From assembly GCF_902713415.1 (NCBI RefSeq), contig NZ_CACTIE010000017.1:1-63695 (forward strand): 63,695 nt of DNA. Direction: 5' to 3'. The DNA is from Arsenophonus endosymbiont of Bemisia tabaci Q2 (GTDB lineage: Bacteria; Pseudomonadota; Gammaproteobacteria; Enterobacterales; Enterobacteriaceae). How positions within the stretch are numbered: position 1 is the first letter of the stretch; the number at the start of each line of letters is the position of its first letter. The notes under the pieces were generated by a model. It was not told the origin of the DNA and made no database searches. It saw nothing but the letters and a program-made list of their open reading frames with translations. The position numbers and the translations under genes are program-made. Positions 2,288 to 57,977 of the stretch are shown piece after piece.

Positions 2288-3025
2288 TCAATAACTGTGC
2301 CGTTGACGTACTGCTTCGAATAAACAAACGCCGGTCGCAATAGAGACATTTAAAGACGAAACCATACCGCCCATTGGAATACTAATCAGTTCATCACAAT
2401 GTTCCCTTGTTAAACGACGGATACCTTCACCTTCAGCACCCATCACCAATGCAACCGGCCCGGTTAACTTACTTTCATATAATGTATGATTGGCGTCACC
2501 TGCAGTGCCAACAATCCAGATATGATGCTGCTGCAATTGACGTAGTGTCCGCGCAAGATTGGTAACCCGAATTAATGGCATACTCTCAGCTGCACCACAG
2601 GCAACTTTCTTAGCGATGGCATTAAGTTGAGCAGATTTATCCTTTGGTACAATAACCGCATCAATACCCGCAGCCTCTGCACTACGTAAACAAGCACCTA
2701 AGTTATGTGGATCGGTAATACCATCTAATATAAGCAAAAAGGGTGATTTTGTCTGAGAAATAATAATATCTAAATCACTCTCTTGATATTGCCGCCCGGG
2801 TTTTAGCTGAGCGATAATACCCTGATGAACAGCGTTCTGTGTCTGCTTATCCATCCATTGACGATTAGCTAACTGGATAATAATGCCCAATTTTTCAAGC
2901 TGTTGAATAATCGGCAATAAACGTTTATCTTCACGCCCTTTAAGTACATAAACTTGTTTTAAACGCGATGGATTGCGTTCCAGCAGTGCTTGCACTGCAT
3001 GAATACCATAAATAATTTCACTCAT
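2288..3025 (-). CDS. rlmB: 23S rRNA (guanosine-2'-O)-methyltransferase RlmB
   Basis: RlmB methylates the 2'-O of G2251 in the P loop of 23S rRNA using S-adenosylmethionine. The 245-residue product has the substrate-binding domain first (about residues 1-80, starting [17 protein letters not shown]). The SPOUT-fold trefoil-knot methyltransferase domain follows, with [22 protein letters not shown] and [10 protein letters not shown]. The length matches E. coli (243). It lies downstream of rnr, 78 bases away, as in E. coli. It looks intact. Confidence 0.95.
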
Positions 3026-3102
3026 AAATTTATCGATTACTTAATAACTCTCAAAGAGAGTCAATCATTGCCGATGAAGATCAGTAATAAAAATAACTAA
3101 GA

Positions 3103-11390: not shown

Positions 11391-11687
11391 TTATTCAGTC
11401 GCATCACTATCCTGTGGAACTGCCACATTACCTGTATTGTAATTACCTAAGCCTGTATTACCCCCTTGATTACTATGGTGAGATACAGGACGAGAAGGTA
11501 CTACAGTAGAAATAGCATGCTTATATACCATTTGGCTTACTGTGTTTTTCAGTAAAATAACAAATTGATCAAATGATTCGATTTGACCTTGTAATTTGAT
11601 GCCATTGACCAAATAAATGGAAACCGGAACCCTTTCACGACGTAACGCGTTTAGGAACGGATCTTGCAAAGATTGCCCCTTAGCCAT
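11391..11687 (-). CDS. hfq: RNA chaperone Hfq
   Basis: Hfq is the hexameric Sm-like protein that binds small RNAs and their mRNA targets. The 98-residue product starts [34 protein letters not shown]. It has the Sm1 motif ([11 protein letters not shown]) and the Sm2 motif [14 protein letters not shown]. The tail is unstructured, rich in Gly and Asn and ends in acidic residues, typical of enterobacteria (102 residues in E. coli). Its survival agrees with a retained small-RNA gene, glmZ, in this window. It sits between miaA and hflX as usual. Confidence 0.97.
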
Positions 11688-11797: not shown

Positions 11798-12739
11798 CTA
11801 TGCACTAATAACATGCAATATTGTGTTAAGAATTCCCTTAATATCATCGCTATCGAGTCTATGCACGTTTTTCCATCCTCTTAACCATGTAATTTGACGT
11901 TTAGCCAATTGACGTGTTGCACATATACCACGATAAACCATTTCATCATAGCTGATTTCACCAGACAAATATGACCACATCTGACGATAACCAACAGAAC
12001 GTATAGCGGGTAGATCCCCATGGAGATCCCCTCTAGCATAAAGAGCGCTAACTTCATCCTCAAAACCGGTCTTCAACATTTTTAGGAAGCGCATCTCAAT
12101 ACGTTGGTGGAGAATTTTACGATCTTGCGGTGAAATCGCAAACTGTAACACATTATAAGGTAATTCTGCCTCTACAATTTCAGTTAATTCTGTCAGACTC
12201 TGCCCGGAAACTAAGAAAACCTCTAAGGCACGAGACAATCGTTGAGGATCATTAGGATGGATTCTAGCTGCTGATATGGGATCAACCGTTTTCAAACGTT
12301 TATGAATTGTTTCCCAACCAAATTGTTTCGCTTGCATTTCAATTTCTGCCCGAATTGTAACATCGGCAGAAGGTAAGGGTGACAACCCATCCAGTAATGC
12401 TTTAAAATATAGCATAGTCCCCCCAACGAGTAAGGGAATACGGCCCGATGCGACAATTTTTTCCATTTCTAATAAAGCATCACGGCGAAAATCTGCGGCT
12501 GAATAAGACTGTGCAGGATCCAATATGTCAATTAATCGGTGTGGGGCAATTTGTTGCTCTTCCCGTGTTGGTTTCGCTGTTCCTATATTCATACCGCAAT
12601 AAATTAAAGCAGAATCTACACTAATTATTTCAACGGGTAATTGTTGACGCAATGCCATTGCCAATGCTGTCTTTCGTGACGCCGTTGGCCCCATGATAAA
12701 AATCGCTTGGGGTTTATGTTGAAAAATTTGTTTACTCAT
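11798..12739 (-). CDS. miaA: tRNA dimethylallyltransferase MiaA, P-loop glycine replaced
   Basis: MiaA transfers dimethylallyl to A37 of tRNAs that read UNN codons. The 313-residue product is full length (316 in E. coli) and keeps [18 protein letters not shown] and [13 protein letters not shown]. Its phosphate-binding loop, however, reads GPTASRKT. The family has GPTASGKT, and the last glycine (CGA codon here) is close to invariant in Walker A loops. An arginine there should clash with the bound diphosphate, so activity is doubtful although the frame is open. Its start overlaps the 3' end of mutL by eight bases, as is common. Confidence 0.92.
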
Positions 12740-14672
12740 GAGTTAAAGCCGTTATCACCGATTCAAAATCAATTAGTTGTAGTAATTTTTTCGGTGGTTC
12801 TTTAACTAATTCAGGGTAAGCCCGCTCCAGATCCGCTAATAACTGTACCCCTTGTGCAATTGTCCACACTTTTTTTTCATTTACTAAATTATCTGCTAAC
12901 CAAACAACTAATTCCATCAACTGACAAGAAGTATTTTGAGCAAAATATTTCAATAGTTTTGGAAATAGTTCAGATAAATTTTGTGATCTCAAGGGACAAG
13001 ATACACCACTAATTGTTGCTTTGTTATGAGAAATATTTATGTCAAAACCTAAGGTACTTAATAATACCTTTACTCGATAAAAAGTTTCAATTTCCTTTTC
13101 TGTTAATGAGAGCTTTATTGGTATCAGTAAGGGCTGAGATTTTAATTCTATATCAGTAGGAATTAATTGACCTCGTTTTAAATATCGCTCAGCTTCCGCT
13201 AATGATAACAAACCTATTCCAAATGATGATTCAATAAATGCGAAATTTTTAGAATAAATTGCTAGTATTTTACCAAATGTATAATTTTTATTATTTTTTT
13301 CTATATCAACCGATTTTATTGCTATTTTTTCAGTTTTTATTGATTCTCGCTCTGGAAAAAGTGGGATTTTTTCTTGTTTAGCTGGTTCATTTTGCATCAA
13401 TTGCTGATAAAGCTCACCCTGTTTTTTGTTATAGATTTTTTTAGCTATTTTTCCATTATTGTAACAAGAAAATGATGCTGTTTTAGACGGCGAAATTTGG
13501 CTACTGGCATTTAATTCTGTTATTACTTGTTCTTCTTGCTCTTTAATAACTAAATGCTGCTTTGAATCATCTGAGGCAAAAAAATTTTCACCCGCAGCTA
13601 ACCGATTTTGTAATCCTGAAGCAAGATGAGTTTCCTGGTTTGAACTAACAGAGACTTGATTAAATTGTTTTTGGTGTTGTTGGCTTAGTACCGTGTTCAC
13701 ACCCTGATAGATAAAATCATGAACCAATCTCGCTTGGTGAAAACGGACTTCCTGTTTAGCTGGATGAACATTAACATCAACCTGATGAGGATCAATGGTT
13801 AAATAAAGCACATAAGCCGCTTGCTGTTCTTCTTGTAGACGATGAGCATAGGCCTGACGAATTGCATGATTGATTAATCGATCGCGCATTATGCGCCCAT
13901 TAACATAACAATATTGAATTTCAGCGGCCCTACCTAAATAGGGATTAGTTATCCAGCCTTTAATGGCTAAATCACCATGTTGCCAACATAATTTCACCGC
14001 ATTTTGTATAAAAGAAGTACCACAAATAGCAGCTAAGCGTCGTTCATATTGCTCTTCACTATTTGTCGCACGATACTGGCGAACTAATTTACCATTATGA
14101 TGCAAATTGATTGCAACATCGAAACGCGCTAAAGCTATTCTACGTACAATCTCATCAATATGGCTAAATTCGGTTTTTTCTGTACGTAAAAATTTACGTC
14201 GAGCCGGCGTATTATAAAACAGATCAAGAACTTCAACTGTTGTTCCTATTGGGTGAGCAGCAGGTTTTAGCGTAACATTCATCTCACGCCCTTCAGCATA
14301 AGCTTGCCAGGCTTCTGTCTGAGTCTCGACGCGTGAAGTTAGTATTAAACGAGAAACCGAACTAATACTGGCCAGCGCTTCTCCTCTAAATCCCATACTC
14401 ATAATAGCGGCCAGATCTTCTAGCGTGGCTATTTTGCTGGTCGCGTGTCGCGCCAACGCTAGTGTTAAATCTTCTTTGGCGATACCACTACCATTGTCAT
14501 GGATACGGATAAGTTTTGACCCACCACGTTCAATTTCAATATCAATACGGCTGGCGCCAGCATCAAGACTATTTTCGACTAACTCTTTCAGAACCAATGA
14601 TGGGCGTTCAACAGCTTCACCCGCAGCAATTTGATTAGCTAACTCAGGAGAAAGAATTTGTATCGCTGACAT
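12732..14672 (-). CDS. mutL: DNA mismatch repair protein MutL
   Basis: MutL couples MutS recognition to MutH and UvrD in methyl-directed mismatch repair. The N-terminal GHKL ATPase motifs are intact: [10 protein letters not shown] (catalytic Glu, Asn), DNGSGI, HATSKI and [10 protein letters not shown]. The transducer domain with [13 protein letters not shown] follows. A low-complexity linker spans about residues 330-455, and the dimerisation domain is C-terminal. I start at 14672 ([20 protein letters not shown]) because the five upstream codons are not conserved. The product is 646 residues. The linker is rich in K, N and Q codons with A runs, yet remains open. Confidence 0.94.
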
Positions 14673-14693
14673 AATGACCTCTGCCATATTTCA

Positions 14694-15998
14694 TCATTTT
14701 GGCGCTGCTTGTAAGGGGTGTTGGGTAAAATAATTGCGTAATGCTTGATGAATAGCTACTGCCAAACTTTTCTGATAATCGTCAGAAACTAAAAGGCGCT
14801 CTTCAGAAATATTACTAACAAAACCTGCTTCCACCAGAATAGATGGAATGTCGGTAGAACGAAGTACACCAAGACTGGCATGTTCTGGATCATATTTATG
14901 GATATTACCAATTTTACTTAATTCTCTCAGTACTTTTACCGCGACAGCATAACCTACACGTTGGGAATTGCCAAATTGTAAATCTAAAACAGTTTGGCTA
15001 AGATAAGGATCTGCACCATTTGCTAACGCATCACCGGCACCACCTAATAATTCAGATTGCTTTTCATGTTGTTCAAGCGAATTACCCAATTCACTATTCG
15101 CTCTTCGATTGGAAAGCACCCAGACAGAAGCACCTCGGGCACGATTATTAGGTGCTTCATCAGCATGAATTGAAACGAGCATATCAGCCGCTTTTTTTCG
15201 TGCCACTTCTGAACGACCCGCTACAGAAATAAAATAATCGCCATTACGGGTCATCACTGTCTTAAAATTGGATCTGTCTTTAAATGGTTCTTTAATTTAC
15301 GCGCAATTATCATTGTTATATTTTTTTCACGATGACCATTTTGCCCAATTGCGCCTGGATCTTTACTGCCATGTCCAGCATCAATTACCACGGCAACTTG
15401 CCGAGTACCTTTAGGTAAATTTTTATATATTGAGGGAGTTGGTGAGTTATTGGCTAACTTTTTCTCAGCTGGTGAATCAATTGATAGCAATTTATTGGTT
15501 GCTTCAGTTGCGGACTGAGATGTCTGAGGCTGCGATACCCCAGCACGATTATTCTTTAAGCTAAAAACTATTTGATAGCGATGATTTATTTGTTCAGCCA
15601 CCGCACTTGCTTTCACTGCATTTGCCAATTTGATAACAATACGTTGATACTGACTATTCGGTGGCTGACTAGTACGGATCCCTTTAACCAAATTATTATT
15701 TATAAACTTCATTGGTAATCGAGATACCTGATCAGATTGACCAAAATCGACAACCAAACGCTCAAGCTCATGAAGGGGAAAGAAGCGGTACTCTGGATTA
15801 CCGCCAGCAAAGTGTAAAGTGAGTTTTGCCTCGGATAAATTATCATTGACGCGAATATTTGGATAAAGTTGCAGCCTGTGCATTAGACAATAATAAGTTG
15901 CTAAGTAATATTGTTGTCATTAATAAATGAAATACATGAGTTTGCCATCTTTTTATTATATTAATCATTATTATATTAATCATCAAAGTCTTCATCAT
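14694..15998 (-). pseudogene. amiB: N-acetylmuramoyl-L-alanine amidase AmiB, two frameshifts
   Basis: AmiB is the periplasmic amidase that splits septal peptidoglycan during division. An ATG at 15998 opens a frame with a basic start, a hydrophobic stretch (LLMTTILLSNLLLS) and a cleavage site NAQA/A. That is a signal peptide, but the frame stops soon after. One A too many near 15858 moves the AMIN domain (NIRVNDNLSEAKLTLHF) into another frame. A second one-base shift near 15255, at DPILRQ, splits the Amidase_3 domain. IDAGHGSKDPGA (zinc ligand) ends up before the break, and the rest, starting [15 protein letters not shown], after it. Secretion and catalysis both look lost. Confidence 0.9.
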
Positions 15999-17798: not shown

Positions 17799-17873
17799 TG
17801 GGCGTGAAACCAGACTCGAACTCACGACCCCGACCTTGGCAAGGTCGGGCTCTACCAACTGAGCTATTCCCGC
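17799..17873 (-). tRNA. tRNA-Gly (GCC), with acceptor- and T-stem mismatches
   Basis: The sequence starts GCGGGAATAGCTCAG and has anticodon loop TTGCCAA, so GCC, in the place of the glyV/X/Y genes next to orn in E. coli. Compared with the E. coli tRNA it carries several changes. The 3' acceptor strand is TTCACGC, not TTCCCGC, giving a G:A mismatch. The T stem has a G:G mismatch, and position 73 is C instead of T. D arm and anticodon arm are sound. It may be a dying tRNA copy; whether another tRNA-Gly(GCC) exists cannot be seen here. Confidence 0.8.
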
Positions 17874-20829: not shown

Positions 20830-21706
20830 TAGCTAAGCGACTTAATTTTGATCACATTATTTATATGAGCTATTCAATTGATTTTAGACGTAAAGTGATA
20901 TTTACGATGGAAGAAGAAGGGTTGAGTATCCGAGAAACAGCGAAGCAATTTCGGATTGGCGCTGCATCTGTATCGCGTTGGATTAATCAAATAGAGCCAA
21001 AAGCATTGACTACGCGTCAGCGAAAAATCGATAAATCCGAGTTGATAAAAGATGTTGAACAATATCCAGATGCTTACCAAAAAGAGCGTGCAGAGCGTTT
21101 TAGCGTTTTTGAGAAGGCCATTTGGCAAGCTCTTAAAAAATGGGATTGACCTATAAAAAACTTTACGTCATCCGAAAGCCGACGAAAACACTCGACAAAC
21201 GTTTCAACAAAAAACAACAGTATGAAAAAGAAGGCAAGCATATTGTTTTTATTGATGAAAGTGGTTTTTCACACGATACCCCGCGGACTCACGGCTATTC
21301 CCCGAAAGGTCAACGCGGTGTGTTGGTCTCAAGAACTGGGGAGCTAAAGGAAGAACAAATGTTATCGGCGCTTTATTGGGCACAACGCTGTTTGCTATCG
21401 GATTATTTGATATCAATATTAACAGCGATGTTTTCTATGCATGGGTCACCCAAGTCCTTATCCCAGTACTTCCTAAAAACAGTGTAATCATGATGGATAA
21501 TGCAACTTTTCACAAGAAACAGAGTATTCAACAAGTCATCATCGATGCGGGGCATATGGTGGAATATTTGCCTACCTATTCGCCAGTTCTTAATCCAATT
21601 GAACATAAATGGGCACAAGCTAAATGCAAAAAAATAGCGTTCGGATGCGAAAAAGATATTTTGTTCGCACTCAATATGATGTAATCAAAATTAAGTCGCT
21701 TAGCTA
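20830..21706 (+). mobile_element. IS630-family element, copy 1 (transposase frameshifted), at a rearrangement junction
   Basis: The 877-bp element has TAGCTAAGCGACTTAA at the left end, its inverted copy at the right end, and TA on both sides. The transposase starts at 20865 (MSYSIDFRRKVIFTMEEE, helix-turn-helix with SIRETAKQFRIGAASVSRW). It is split into frames 20865-21149, 21140-21487 and 21376-21684 by short indels in A runs and by two extra bases near 21320. The DDE triad is visible across frames: VFIDESGF, IMMDNATFH, NPIEHKW. Left lies psd and right yigL, which are far apart in E. coli. Confidence 0.92.
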
Positions 21707-23873: not shown

Positions 23874-24769
23874 TAGCTAAGCGACTTAATTTTGATGACA
23901 TTATTTATATGAGCTATTCAATTGATTTTAGACGTAAAGTGATATTTACCATGGAAGAAGAAGGGTTGAGTATCCGAGAAACAGGGAAGCAATTTCGGAT
24001 TGGCTCTGCATCTGTATCGCGTTGTATTAATCAAATAGAGCCAAAAGCATCGACTACGCGTCAGCGAAAAATCGATAAATCCGAGTCGATAAAAGATGTT
24101 GAACAATATCCAGATGCTTACCAAAAAGAGCGTGCAGAGCGTTTTGGCGTTTGTCAGAAGGCTATTTGGCAAGCTCTTAAAAAAATGGGATTGACCTATA
24201 AAAAAACTCTACGTCATCCGAAAGCCGACGAAAACACTCGACAAACGTTTCAACAAAAAAACAACAGTATGAAAAAGAAGGCAAGCATATTGTTTTTATT
24301 GATGAAAGTGGTTTTTCACACGATACCCCGCGGACTCACGGCTATTCCCCGAAAGGTCAACGGTGTCTTGGTTTCAAGAACTGGGGAGCTAAAGGAAGAA
24401 CAAATGTTATCGGCGCTTTATTTGGCACAACGCTGTTTGCTATCGGATTATGTTTGCTATCGGATTATTTGATATCAATATTAACAGCGATGTTTTCTAT
24501 GCATGAGTCACCCAAGTCCTTATCCTAGTACTTCCTAAAAACAGTGTAATCATGATGGATAATGCAACTTTTCACAAGAAACAGAGTATTCAACAAGTCA
24601 TCATCGATGCGGGGCATATGGTGGAATATTTGCCTACCTATTCGCCAGATCTTAATCCAATTGAACATAAATGGGCACAAGCTATATGTAAAAAAAGAGC
24701 GCTCGGATGGCGACACAGATATTTTTTTCGCACTCAATATGGTGTAATCAAAATTAAGTCGCTTAGCTA
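23874..24769 (+). mobile_element. IS630-family element, copy 2 (inactive)
   Basis: The 896-bp copy has matching ends and flanking TA. The transposase starts at 23909, reads through the helix-turn-helix and KKTLRHPKADENTRQTFQQK, then shifts frame at an A run (seven A, near 24256). The DDE part includes GKHIVFIDESGF and QRCLGFKNWGAKGRTN. It is broken again by a perfect 17-bp tandem duplication (24434-24450 and 24451-24467). A TGG-to-TGA change lies in YAWVTQ, and a further indel lies near the last catalytic region. Confidence 0.92.
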
Positions 24770-24787
24770 TACTAAGTATGACTAAGT

Positions 24788-25079
24788 ATGGGTATCTTTT
24801 ATGGTGGTATTGCCCAGATTATTGCCGGTATTTTTGAATATAAAAAAGGAAATACCTTTGCCGCAACGGCATTCTCATCTTATGGCTTGTTTTGACTCAG
24901 TTTAGTTGGTTTATTAATGCTGCCTGAAATAGCGTCGGTGCAAGTAACATCCGCAGATTTTCTGGCAGTTTACTTGGCATTGTCGGCTATCTTTACCTTA
25001 TTTATGTTTGTTGGCACGTTAAAGGCTAATCGCGCACTACAATTCGTTTTTGCTAGTCTGACCGTACTTTTTGCGCTGT
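24788..25079 (+). pseudogene. satP: Acetate/succinate transporter SatP (YaaH), internal fragment
   Basis: About 97 codons match the middle of SatP, a six-helix acetate-succinate:proton symporter: [32 protein letters not shown], then FLAVYLALSAIFTLFMFVGT and LQFVFASLTVLFALL. A TGA sits where E. coli has Trp (SYGSFWLTL). Both ends are cut by mobile elements (IS630 copy 2 left, MITE 3 right). In E. coli satP lies near dnaK, so this is a fragment moved from elsewhere. Confidence 0.9.
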
Positions 25080-25081
25080 TA

Positions 25082-25185
25082 TAGCTAGGCGACTTTAAAA
25101 TGATTGCAAGTAATCACTCTATATCAGTAAATTTATATTGGAGAAAAACATATATTTTTGTAATCAAAATTAAGTCGCTTAGCTA
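25082..25185 (-). mobile_element. MITE copy 3 (reverse orientation), between satP fragment and IS630 copy 3
   Basis: 104 bp, TAGCTAGGCGAC to CGCTTAGCTA, flanked by TA on both sides. Its right TA coincides with an internal TA of the IS630 sequence (GACG-TA-AAGTG), so it landed inside an IS630 copy. The part of that copy which should lie on its left is replaced by satP. Confidence 0.9.
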
Positions 25186-26025
25186 TAAAGTGATATTTAC
25201 GATGGAAGAAGAAGGGTTGAGTATCCGAGAAACAGGGAAGCAATTTTGGATTGGCTCTGCATCTGTATCGCGTTGGATTAATCAAATAGAGCAAAAAGCG
25301 TCGACTACGCGTCAGCGAAAAATCGATAAATCCGAGTTGATAAAAGATGTTGAACAATATCCAGATGCTTACCAAAAAGAGCGTGCAGGGCGTTTTGGCG
25401 TTTGTCAGAAGGCTATTTGGCAAGCTCTTAAAAAAATGGGATTGACCTATAAAAAAACTCTACGTCATCCGAAAGCCGACGAAAACACTCGACAAACGTT
25501 TCAACAAAAAAACAACAGTATGAAAAAGAAGGCAAGCATATTGTTTTTATTGATGAAAGTGGTTTTTCACACGATACCCCGCGGACTCACGGCTATTCCC
25601 CGAAAGGTCAACGCGGTGTGTTGTTCTCAAGAACTGGGGAGCTAAAGGAAGAACAAATGTTATCGGCGCTTTATTTGGCACAACGCTGTTTGCTATCGGA
25701 TTATGTTTGCTATCGGATTATTTGATATCAATATTAACAGCGATGTTTTCTATGCATGGGTGTCACCCAAGTCCTTATCCCAGTACTTCCTAAAAACAGT
25801 GTAATCATGATGGATAATGCAACTTTTCACAAGAAACGCAGTATTGAACAAGTCATCATCGATGCGGGGCATATGGTGGAATATTTGCCTACCTATTCGC
25901 CAGATCTTAATCCAATTGAACATAAATGGGCACAAGCTAAATGCAAAAAAAGAGCGCTCGGATGCGACACAGATATTTTGTTCGCACTCAATATGGTGTA
26001 ATCAAAATTAAGTCGCTTTTAGCTA
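25186..26025 (+). mobile_element. IS630-family element, copy 3 (left end missing)
   Basis: The sequence starts inside the transposase (KVIFTMEEEGLS, 25187) and runs to a complete right end TTTTAGCTA plus TA. The first roughly 60 bases with the left inverted repeat are gone, replaced by MITE 3 and satP. It has the same 17-bp tandem duplication as copy 2 (25687-25703 and 25704-25720), the same seven-A run, and an extra GT in the YAWV region. It cannot move on its own. Confidence 0.9.
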
Positions 26026-38224: not shown

Positions 38225-39489
38225 ATGACGGAACAGAATAAACCGAATGAGGTGAATGAAAACCCATCAAATGCCTCAAAAACAGCAGCGCAATCTACGG
38301 CCAAAAATGGTAACCCCCATAGGCAAAAGCGTTCTGGTCTGTTTGGTAGTATAATTACTATCGTTCTTATTATCATACTCGGTGGTGGCTTCTATTATTA
38401 TCTTCATCTAAAACATCAACAAATAGTCAATGACAGCAGTGCATTAGAACAACAAATAAATGAATTACTACGTCAACAAGAAACAGAAAAACAGCAAATT
38501 AACCAATTGGTTGAATCCCAGCGTATTAGCCAGTTAGATAAGAAAGAATATGAGCAACAACTTGAACAACGCGTCGAAGAATTACAAGCAAAAATCACAA
38601 CACTTTCAAGTACAGATGTGAAACGCTGGTTACTTGCCAAAGGTGATTTCTTAGCCAAAATAGCTGGCCGAAAACTTTGGAATGACTATGATCCCGTTAC
38701 TGCGGTTGCCTTATTAAAAAGTGCTGATGCAAGTCTAGCAGAAATGAATGATCCTAATTTAATTGAGATCCGAAAAACACTTAATAATGATATCAGTGGG
38801 CTATCAGTTATTACCCAAATTGATTATGACGGAATTATTTTAAAGCTTAATCAACTGAGCAGTGATATCGATAATTTACGCATAAATGATAGTGCTCCCG
38901 CATAAATGATAGTGCTCCCGATGGTAACCTCATGGATAAGGATAGCACGGAACTTTCCAATAATATTCCTGATTGGAAACAAAATCTTAGCCAAAGTTGG
39001 AAAAGTTTTAGTAAAAATTTTATTACTATTCGTCGTAGGGATTTTCATGAAACTCCTTTACTTGCACCAAATCAGGACATTTACCTACCCGCCAATATTC
39101 GAGCACAACTGCTTATTGCCGCCCAAGCCATACCTCCTCATCAAGAGCAAATTTACAAACAATCTTTAGAGCAAGTTTCAACCTGGATTCGAATTTACTT
39201 TAATACCAACGACGCGGCAACAAAAGCCTTCCTTACCGAAGTCGATAAACTGATTGAACAACCGATTACAATGGATATTCCCAGCGAGTTAAAAAGTTTA
39301 TTACTACTCGATAAAGCGTTGCAAAAGCGTATTCAAGGGAAAATCCCTTCTTCTCCAACACCGAAACCACAAAAAACGCAACCAACCAACGAAAAGAGAA
39401 CAAATCATCACATAAAAATAGTTCCCCCTGCTCCAACAGAAGAAGCGGTAAAACCTAGCAATAAAACTGCCCAGGAGGGAACGGCATGA
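38225..39489 (+). pseudogene. hemX: HemX membrane protein, frame broken by a 20-bp tandem duplication
   Basis: HemX is an inner-membrane protein of uncertain role, once called a uroporphyrinogen methylase. The frame has a cytoplasmic start, one membrane helix (about residues 40-58, [19 protein letters not shown]) and a coiled coil ([16 protein letters not shown]). It stops at 38905. There a 20-bp unit is repeated exactly (38881-38900 and 38901-38920). Deleting one unit joins RINDSAP to DGNLMDKDSTEL and restores the second open piece (38932-39489). The coding potential is otherwise clean, so the lesion is young. Confidence 0.92.
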
Positions 39490-40685
39490 TAAAAGTACTG
39501 ATCCTTTTTATTGTACTGATTGCTGGCATCATTATTGGTCACATTGTCGCCGGGCACCAAGGTTATGTACTGATCCAAACCAACAACTACGATATTCAAA
39601 CCAGTGTAACTGGTTTAGTCATCTGTTTTATTATTTTACAATTTATTTTCTGTTTGCTTGGCTGGTGCTATCGTCGTATTCGCGGCACCTCATCATTTAC
39701 CCATAATTGGCTAAAAGGCCGTAAATATCATAAAGCGCACAGTCAAACACAAAAAGCATTACTAAAATTAGCGGAAGGTGATTTTTCACAAGTCGAAAAA
39801 CTACTGACAGATCATGCTGACTATGCAGAACAACCGGTTGTTAACTATCTGCTGGCAGCAGAAACTGCTGAACAACGCTGTGATGAGTATCGTACCAATC
39901 AATATCTTGAGCGCGCAGCAGAAGTCGCGGGTAGTAACCATCAACTTCCTGTTGATATTACACGTGTGCGTATACAACTTGCTGAAGGTAAAATTCATGC
40001 AGCATGCCACGGTGTTGATAAATTACTGGATCAGGCACCACACGGCACCCTGAAGTCTTAAGAATGGCAGAAAAAGCCTATCAACGTTCAGGAGGTTATC
40101 AAGCGCTTATTGAACTTTTGCCTATTATGCAAAAAGAAAAGTTATATAGTGCAGAAGAGATCGATAAATTACGTAAAGACGCCTATAAAGGTTTGATTAA
40201 TCAATATATGGCTGAAGGTGGCAGCGAAAATTTAAAAAATTGGTGGCAGTCTCAAGGACGTAAAATACGTCATGATCTGGTACTACAATCGATCATTGCT
40301 GCTTGCCTTATTGAATGCGACGATAGCGAAGCAGCAGAAAAAATTATTATTACAGGCTTAAAACAGCAATATGATCAGCATCTTTTATTGCTGGTTCCTC
40401 GTTTACAAATTAACGATAGCAAAGCAATGAATAAAATCCTGATCAATCTAATAAAACAGTCAGGTGGCGCTACTCCCTTACTAAATAGTACATTAGGTCA
40501 ACTTGCATTACAGCATGGCGAATGGGCAAGAAGCGGAAAAGTATTTTAAGTCTGCTTTAGCACAACGTCCTGATGCTCACGACTTTGCTTGGCTTGCTGA
40601 TGCTTTAGATAAACAACATAAAGTGGAAGAAGCAGCACAAATTCGCCAACATGGCTTACTTTTTTTATTAAAGCATGAAAATTGA
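39486..40685 (+). pseudogene. hemY: HemY membrane protein, two frameshifts
   Basis: HemY is a TPR-type inner-membrane protein encoded last in the hemCDXY operon. The frame has two membrane helices (VLILFIVLIAGIIIGHIVAG and a second at about residues 40-60) and tetratricopeptide-like repeats. A CA duplication at 40039-40042 (CCACACGG for CCACGG) moves QAPRHPEVLRMAEKAY out of frame. An extra G in GGGC near 40525 shifts HGEWQEAEKYFKSAL. The end, RQHGLLFLLKHEN, reaches 40685. Both lesions are small and the rest is well preserved. Confidence 0.9.
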
Positions 40686-42480: not shown

Positions 42481-43469
42481 TAGCTAAGCGACTTAATTTT
42501 GATTACACCATATTGAGTGCGAACAAAATATCTGTGTCGCATCCGAGCGCTCTTTTTTTGCATTTAGCTTGTGCCCATTTATGTTCAATTGGATTAAGAT
42601 CTGGCGAATAGGTAGGCAAATATTCCACCATATGCCCTCCATCGATGATGACTTGTTGAATACTCTGTTTCTTGTGAAAAGTTGCATTATAGCTAAGCGT
42701 CTTAATTTTGATTACAAAATATATGTTCTTCTCCAATATAAATTTACTGATATAGAGTAATTACTTGTAATCATTTTAAAGTCGCCCAGCTATATCCATC
42801 ATGATTACACTGTTTTTAGGAAGTACTGGGATAAGGACTTGGGTGACCCATGCATAGAAAACATCGCTGTTAATATTGATATCAAATAATCCGATAGCAA
42901 ACAGCGTTTTGCCCAATAAAGCGCCGATAACATTTGTTCTTCCTTTAGCTCCCGAGTTCTTGAGACCAACAAACCGTTGACCTTTCGGGGAATAGCCGTG
43001 AGTCCGCGGGGTATCGTGTGAAAAACCACTTTCATCAATAAAAATAATATGCTTTCCTTCTTTTTCATACTGTTATTTTTTGTTGAAAGGTTTGTCGAGT
43101 GTTTTCGTCGGCTTTCGGATGACGTAGAGTTTTTATAGGTCAATCCCATTTTTTTAAGAGCTTGCCAAATGGCCTTCTGACAAACGCCAAAACGCTCTGC
43201 ACGCTCTGCACGCTCTTTTTGGTAAGCATCTGGATATTGTTCAACATTTTTTATCAACTCGGATTTATCGATTTTTCGCTGACGCGTAGTCGATGCTTTT
43301 GGCTCTATTTGATTAATCCAACGCGATACAGATGCAGAGCCAATCCAAAATTGCTTCGCTGTTTCTCGGATACTCAACCCTTTTTCTTCCATCGTAAATA
43401 TCACTTTACGTCTAAAATCAATTGAATAGCTCATATAAATAATGTCATCAAAATTAAGTCGCTTAGCTA
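42481..43469 (-). mobile_element. IS630-family element, copy 4, in yifK (carries a nested MITE)
   Basis: 989 bp, about 884 bp without the inserted MITE. Both ends are present and TA flanks it. Removing it with one TA rejoins yifK in frame. The transposase begins at 43434 and has a 9-bp in-frame duplication (AERAERF). The first A run is shortened to five, which puts the following part out of frame, and MITE 5 splits the IMMDNATFH region. It is inactive. Confidence 0.92.
42690..42792 (+). mobile_element. MITE copy 5, nested in IS630 copy 4
   Basis: 103 bp with TA on both sides, inserted in the transposase at the TA of GCAT-TA-TCCATC. Copies 1-3 and 5 of the IS lack it at this site. One base differs from the common form (GTTCTTCTCC). 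Confidence 0.94.
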
Positions 43470-56995: not shown

Positions 56996-57977
56996 TAGCT
57001 AAGCGACTTAATTTTGATTACACCATATTGACTGCGAACAAAATATCTGTGTCGCATCCGAGCGCTCTTTTTTTGCATTTAGCTTGTGCCCATTTATGTT
57101 CAATTGGATTAAGATCTGGCGAATAGGTAGGCAAATATTCCACCATATGTCCCGCATCGATGATGACTTGTTGAATACTCTGTTTCTTGTGAAAAGTTGC
57201 ATTATCCATCATGATTACACTGTTTTTAGGAAGTGCTGGGATAAGGACTTGGGTGACCCATGCATAGAAAACATCGCTGTTAATATTGATATCAAATAAT
57301 CCGATAGCAAACAGCGTTGTGCCCAATAAAGCGCCGATAACATTTGTTCTTCCTTTAGCTCCCCAGTTCTTGAGACCAACACACCGTTGACCTTTCGGGG
57401 AATAGCCGTGAGTCCGCGGGGTATCGTGTGAAAAACCACTTTCATCAATAAAAACAATATGCTTGCCTTCTTTTTCATACTGTTGTTTTTTGTTGAAACG
57501 TTTGTCGAGTGTTTTCGTCGGCTTTCGGATGACGTAGAGTTTTTTTATAGGTCAATCCCATTTTTTTAAGAGCTTGCCAAATGGCCTTCTGAAAAACGCC
57601 AAAACGCTCTGCACGCTCTTTTTGGTAAGCATCTGGATATTGTTCAACATCTTTTATAGCTAAGCGTCTTAATTTTGATTACAAAATATATGTTTTTCTC
57701 CAATATAAATTTACTGATATAGAGTAATTACTTGTAATCATTTTAAAGTCGCTCAGCTATATCAACTCGGATTTATCGATTTTTCGCTGACGCGTAGTCG
57801 ATGCTTTTGGCTCTATTTGATTAATCCAACGCGATACAGATGCAGAGCCAATCCGAAATTGCTTCGCTGTTTCTCGGATACTCAACCCTTCTTCTTCCAT
57901 CGTAAATATCACTTTACGTCTAAAATCAATTGAATAGCTCATATAAATAATGTCATCAAAATTAAGTCGCTTAGTTA
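56996..57977 (-). mobile_element. IS630-family element, copy 5 (carries a nested MITE)
   Basis: 982 bp, about 877 bp without the MITE, with TA on both sides. It lies between wecA and wzzE. The transposase starts at 57942. MITE 7 splits the N-terminal part, and an A run near 57495 is two A short of the reading frame. From GKHIVFIDESGF on, the frame is continuous through QRCVGLKNWGAKGRTNVIGALLG, IMMDNATFHKKQ and NPIEHKWAQAK to 57018, so the DDE domain is whole. The right end has one mismatch (TAGTTA). Confidence 0.92.
57657..57759 (+). mobile_element. MITE copy 7, nested in IS630 copy 5
   Basis: 103 bp flanked by TA, inserted in the transposase between SELI and KDVEQYPDAY codons. The other IS copies are continuous here. 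Confidence 0.94.

Follow-up and report, generated by a model that had tools for sequence, protein, structure and literature searches.

An arginine in place of the P-loop glycine in a full-length Arsenophonus MiaA: a candidate for missense inactivation in an open reading frame

The stretch of DNA analysed here (the window, 63,695 nucleotides) comes from a draft genome of the genus Arsenophonus (1.86 Mb in 328 contigs) and contains an uninterrupted miaA gene (Table 1). The genes mutL, hfq and hflX surround it in an order matching that of the relatives G001, G003, G004 and G007, and mutL-miaA-hfq-hflX is the usual order of this neighbourhood in enterobacteria. The translated product scores 367.1 bits against TIGR00174, the NCBIfam miaA equivalog (cut-off 148.65, 5.7e-110, profile positions 1-287 of 288), and 291.2 bits against PF01715, the Pfam IPPT family (cut-off 23.6, 8.9e-87). 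With its 313 residues and no internal stop, the enzyme is thus otherwise full-length, as the original prediction had stated. E. coli MiaA (2zm5) aligns with residues 9-312 of the window protein with zero offset; residue 22 here is therefore residue 22 of the E. coli enzyme. A search of the whole draft assembly returned only this one match and no second miaA. Judged from its sequence the protein is MiaA by descent, its activity being a separate matter.

Table 1. Coordinates and description of the features discussed (positions refer to the window)
Feature	Position or locus	Strand	Description
miaA	11798..12739	-	tRNA dimethylallyltransferase orthologue, 313 aa, uninterrupted ORF; PF01715, TIGR00174, 2zm5 alignment
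P-loop (Walker A)	12668..12691	-	residues 17-24, GPTASRKT; GPTASGKT in 86/86 homologues
Codon 22	12674..12676	-	CGA (Arg); GGA (Gly) in 7/7 genus relatives with miaA
Codon 48	12596..12598	-	TGC (Cys), private; R/K/Q/H in 86/86 homologues
Private MiaA changes			G22R, R48C, D51N, G143E, A144T, Q150K, A151T, K180Q, Q220K
mutL	12732..14687	-	upstream neighbour, overlaps the miaA start
hfq	11391..11687	-	downstream neighbour, 99-100% identical in G001, G003, G004 and G007
16S contigs C31, C20, C32, C100, C84	L127, L132, L135, L138, L141; L169-L173		

The P-loop of this MiaA is not intact. It reads GPTASRKT instead of GPTASGKT, and the Arg22 codon lies within the interval 12660-12710 for which this replacement had been predicted. 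The proposed single-base origin of the codon, from GGA to CGA, agrees with the GGA found in every genus relative that has the gene; the private site is 12676, a C>G change on the plus strand and G>C on the sense strand. Thr19, Lys23 and Thr24 of the loop are unchanged, as are Asp42 and Ser43. We infer that Asp42 corresponds to the Asp of the DSMQ motif, which, together with Thr19, is assigned a role in MiaA in the available part of PMC7200024. The protein still passes the equivalog cut-off, so that the change is, as had been anticipated, easily missed by annotation.

That the residue preceding the Walker lysine is nearly invariant was also borne out, since all 86 distinct homologues, mostly enterobacteria and vibrios according to the record titles, carry glycine there; the remaining seven loop residues are likewise invariant. 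This count leaves out the genome's own copies, one duplicate A. nasoniae record and loci that served other parts of the analysis. Prior to these exclusions, glycine occurred in 87 of 88 rows, the 88th being the window's own MiaA. Eighty of the homologues are the best 80 matches in the genome collection and hence nearer relatives, with Arsenophonus nasoniae as the closest named locus among the matches listed (92% identity). Seven of the eight genus relatives gave a miaA match, at 95-96% identity for G007 and G004, 91-92% for G001 and G003, 88% for G006 and 72% for G005 and G002, while the eighth, which is 72% complete, gave none. The GGA codon is also kept by three reduced genomes of the genus, of 0.66-0.85 Mb. 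The pattern GPTA-x-RKT, which detects this version of the motif only, was matched by two genomes among 295 of the family and by four among 369 of the class, all genomes being counted and not just miaA carriers. Both sets of matches include the window's genome itself, and the four further hits, when checked, proved not to be MiaA. In a leave-one-out comparison at positions conserved to at least 97%, departures occur in 31 of the 86 homologues, and reduced symbionts have up to 16 of them. It is therefore not unusual for a conserved site to be changed; what is unusual is a change inside the invariant loop.

With respect to G004 and G007, the gene has accumulated nine private amino-acid changes (Table 1) and three silent ones. 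Two of them, near the P-loop, had not featured in the original prediction: R48C, at the position described in Table 1, and D51N, at a site that is D in 83 and N in 3 homologues. The window protein thus resembles MiaA as represented by TIGR00174 and 2zm5 in its length, its score and its neighbours mutL, hfq and hflX, but it differs from it in having Cys at residue 48 and in departing at 1 of the 137 positions conserved to at least 97%, namely by the replacement of Gly22 with Arg. None of the eight other private replacements falls on these 137 positions. The probability of one or fewer such conserved-site changes is 0.045 at the 97% threshold, 0.147 at 90% and 0.179 at 100%. This avoidance of conserved sites is a weak hint that miaA was still under constraint, which would speak against long-standing decay. 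The ratio of private amino-acid to silent changes (N:S, 9:3) is compatible with neutrality and also with the level found across the lineage.

This level was estimated from codons altered at one base only and identical in the other three genomes. In 28 hand-picked ORFs of the window, of which at least one (39486-40061) looks like a piece of a split gene, the private N:S is 159:89 in the window lineage, 74:59 in G004 and 143:167 in G007. For 26 genes of the ribosomal-protein operons the values are 79:70 in the window genome, 33:30 in G004 and 8:64 in G001. It follows from these strict counts that the window lineage and G004 both filter amino-acid changes weakly. Looser counts, which take in broken or doubtful ORFs, gave 142:53 for the window lineage, 79:48 for G004 and 138:127 for G007 in the first 20.8 kb, and 113:80 for the window genome, 61:33 for G004 and 20:89 for G001 on the ribosomal-protein contig. 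The lineage also shows an excess of C<->G substitutions, the class to which G22R belongs. Between positions 247 and 20830 they account for 56 of 265 private substitutions, compared with 4 of 163 in G004 and 21 of 330 in G007, and their share is similar across the whole window.

The glycine preceding the Walker lysine is what lets a P-loop wrap around phosphates. We favour the explanation that G22R is a genuine and recent missense mutation that has probably inactivated a vertically inherited miaA, to which we give a rough probability of 0.55. According to this scheme, one private missense change of the Arsenophonus gene, Gly22Arg, would have struck the loop in which the diphosphate of dimethylallyl diphosphate is held, and an arginine just ahead of the Walker lysine should distort this loop and thereby block or much weaken substrate binding. 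The enzyme would then be inactive, or almost so, with neither a stop codon nor a frameshift, in other words a cryptic pseudogene. Fixation could have been favoured by the weak amino-acid filtering of the lineage, as in bottlenecked symbionts, together with its unusually many C<->G changes. On this analysis the loss of MiaA activity is likely, and the change appears to be a common case of early gene decay, in a symbiont genome that is degenerating. A37 of the UNN-decoding tRNAs would be left unmodified and the product of the open miaB gene would find little or no substrate. The consequences of lacking this modification for frame maintenance and for sigma-S are known from E. coli; for the symbiont, we infer both the state of its tRNAs and any such effects.

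Two other readings are serious rivals of a missense knock-out. The true codon might be GGA and the enzyme normal, the arginine stemming from a sequencing or assembly error. The assembly is a draft in many contigs, and the same 16S match recurs on three of them, two being identical over the 6000 bases compared, so it contains some redundancy. Moreover, the C<->G excess concerns exactly the class of G22R, and in the window ORFs these changes are close to random with respect to coding effect (51 N:9 S, a share of 0.85 versus 0.90 at random, P=0.12). The tendency of the remaining private replacements in miaA to avoid the most conserved sites would also fit an error at codon 22. However, in the ribosomal genes the C<->G changes are depleted in amino-acid replacements (21 N:11 S versus a random N share of 0.89, P=0.0003, uncorrected and for one of several classes); many of them must therefore have passed through selection, so that errors do not account for all, which weakens the idea that sequencing error lies behind every private change. 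Clustered low-quality stretches are not indicated, as the private substitutions are unclustered, 9.1% having a neighbour within 6 bases where 7.5% are expected. It also argues against poor sequence that miaA and its neighbours are unbroken here, with the exception of amiB, in which a private deletion of one base splits the frame (window 15254-15267; the base is present in G004, G007 and G001). The private changes are possibly a mixture of errors and mutations, and we consider an error at this particular codon doubtful.

A real but tolerated change, with the R22 enzyme retaining useful activity, seems to us rather unlikely. It may be argued that MiaA binds a small diphosphate and not a nucleoside triphosphate, so that the loop glycine would be less needed. 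The intact frame, the open miaB and the small number of other conserved sites changed are all in keeping with this view, and a P-loop mutant can stay folded. The example comes from CFTR, in which G1249 is presumably the residue preceding the Walker lysine, and G1249R would be the same kind of glycine-to-arginine replacement; CFTR is, however, an unrelated, ATP-binding protein, and G1249R is known from patients rather than as a fixed change of a lineage. In the available part of PMC9735543 this mutant is described as near wild-type in conformation and functionally defective. Tolerance fits poorly with a glycine present in every one of the 86 homologues and with the lack of any other arginine-bearing MiaA among the pattern matches from the 295 and 369 genomes. 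It is also at odds with the cost of a different change in the same loop: the T19A replacement in E. coli MiaA lowers kcat 600-fold and the equivalent changes in Tit1 and TRIT1 are inactivating (quoted in the part of PMC7200024 available to us). No MiaA mutant at Gly22 came up in a literature search for P-loop mutants of the enzyme or in the accessible part of the same article, T19A and CFTR G1249R being the nearest tested cases found. A gain of function, in which the arginine would provide MiaA with a new substrate or role, is highly improbable; beyond the open frame nothing speaks for it, and just 9 of 313 residues are privately changed, in a lineage that filters weakly wherever examined.

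If MiaA is indeed knocked out by missense, the remainder of the ms2i6A pathway has not clearly followed. The miaB gene of the same genome is open, its product scores above the family cut-off and keeps six of six cluster cysteines, and there is thus no clear sign that the pathway as a whole has been abandoned. Its private N:S is 9:8, with two of the nine replacements at genus-invariant sites, C213Y and L321F, position 213 being Cys in 6 of 6 relatives. C213Y, like the private deletion in nearby amiB, is in keeping with gene decay. G006 (0.66 Mb) likewise shows decay in this neighbourhood and in this pathway but presents the reverse situation, an open miaA with Gly22 but a mere remnant of miaB; near its miaA, hflX, amiB and hflC are broken. 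In G007, mutL (L095, about 3019-3032) gave two overlapping tblastn pieces and is probably frameshifted, the window mutL being open; rplP gave no match in that genome.

Decay of miaA has a precedent among insect symbionts: the available part of PMC5322561 lists the gene as lost in Portiera, a whitefly symbiont, with a pseudogene in one strain. Unlike what is recorded there for Portiera, the window gene has no stop, frameshift or deletion and would be affected by missense, its ORF staying open. The main text of a paper on whitefly Arsenophonus (PMC6167482), in the part available, does not contain the term 'miaA'. If the inactivation is real, it provides a clean case of a gene that is intact by the equivalog standard while its activity is probably lost, and it contrasts with a genus in which three reduced genomes retain a Gly22 MiaA. 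Gene-content inventories of degenerating symbionts may then overcount functional tRNA-modification enzymes. What is known of MiaA itself is not altered by G22R.

A stranger lead than the miaA change is a strand-biased G>A excess in the rRNA genes of this genome. Five distinct 16S genes are found on seven of its contigs. They differ by 8-16% from one another and by 3-15% from G004, of which the three copies compared are 99.9-100% identical. Relative to G004, the sense-strand ratio of G>A to C>T changes is 31:1 for C31, 46:12 for C20, 105:5 for C32, 115:11 for C100 and 144:21 for C84, while the comparison of G001 with G004 gives 3:3; the excess extends into the 23S parts of the rRNA genes. With 1546.1 bits in Rfam, the C31 copy scores as high as that of G004 (1545.9) and looks sound, the other four ranging from 727 to 1239 bits. 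Erosion thus does not seem to affect every assembled rRNA gene. In protein-coding genes, private sense-strand changes give a G>A:C>T ratio of 74:25 for contig C109 (L153), which holds the ribosomal-protein operons, and of 140:69 for minus-strand and 19:17 for plus-strand genes of the window. The bias may follow either transcription or replication. The overall ratio amounts to about 1.8 for window ORFs and 3 for C109, and it ranges from 4 to 31 among the five distinct 16S genes.

It is conceivable, although we regard it as unlikely, that G22R is a symptom of a lineage-wide, G-directed and sense-strand-biased shift in mutation, perhaps through poor repair of O6-alkylguanine by an altered Ogt. 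Such a shift would silently kill conserved translation genes by missense and erode all but one of the five distinct 16S genes assembled, with the frames of protein genes left open. The ogt gene (L160, C183:3240-3470) is open and keeps its PCHR motif, but RAVG has become RAVR and the C-terminus is shortened; the Ogt of G004 likewise has an altered C-terminus. Simple loss of ogt as the cause of the mutation spectrum does not fit an open gene with PCHR present, though altered, and an altered Ogt is a possible cause of the G>A change.

Other features of the window deserve a brief mention. The tRNA gene at 17801-17873 carries four private substitutions (17801, 17805, 17824 and 17848) and scores 48.6 bits in Rfam. 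An ORF that looks like a transposase is present in several broken copies (21140-21684, 23909-25645, 42805-43434 and 57018-57326), and between 43835 and 58992 many genes that by their look are surface-polysaccharide genes are split into short adjacent ORFs.
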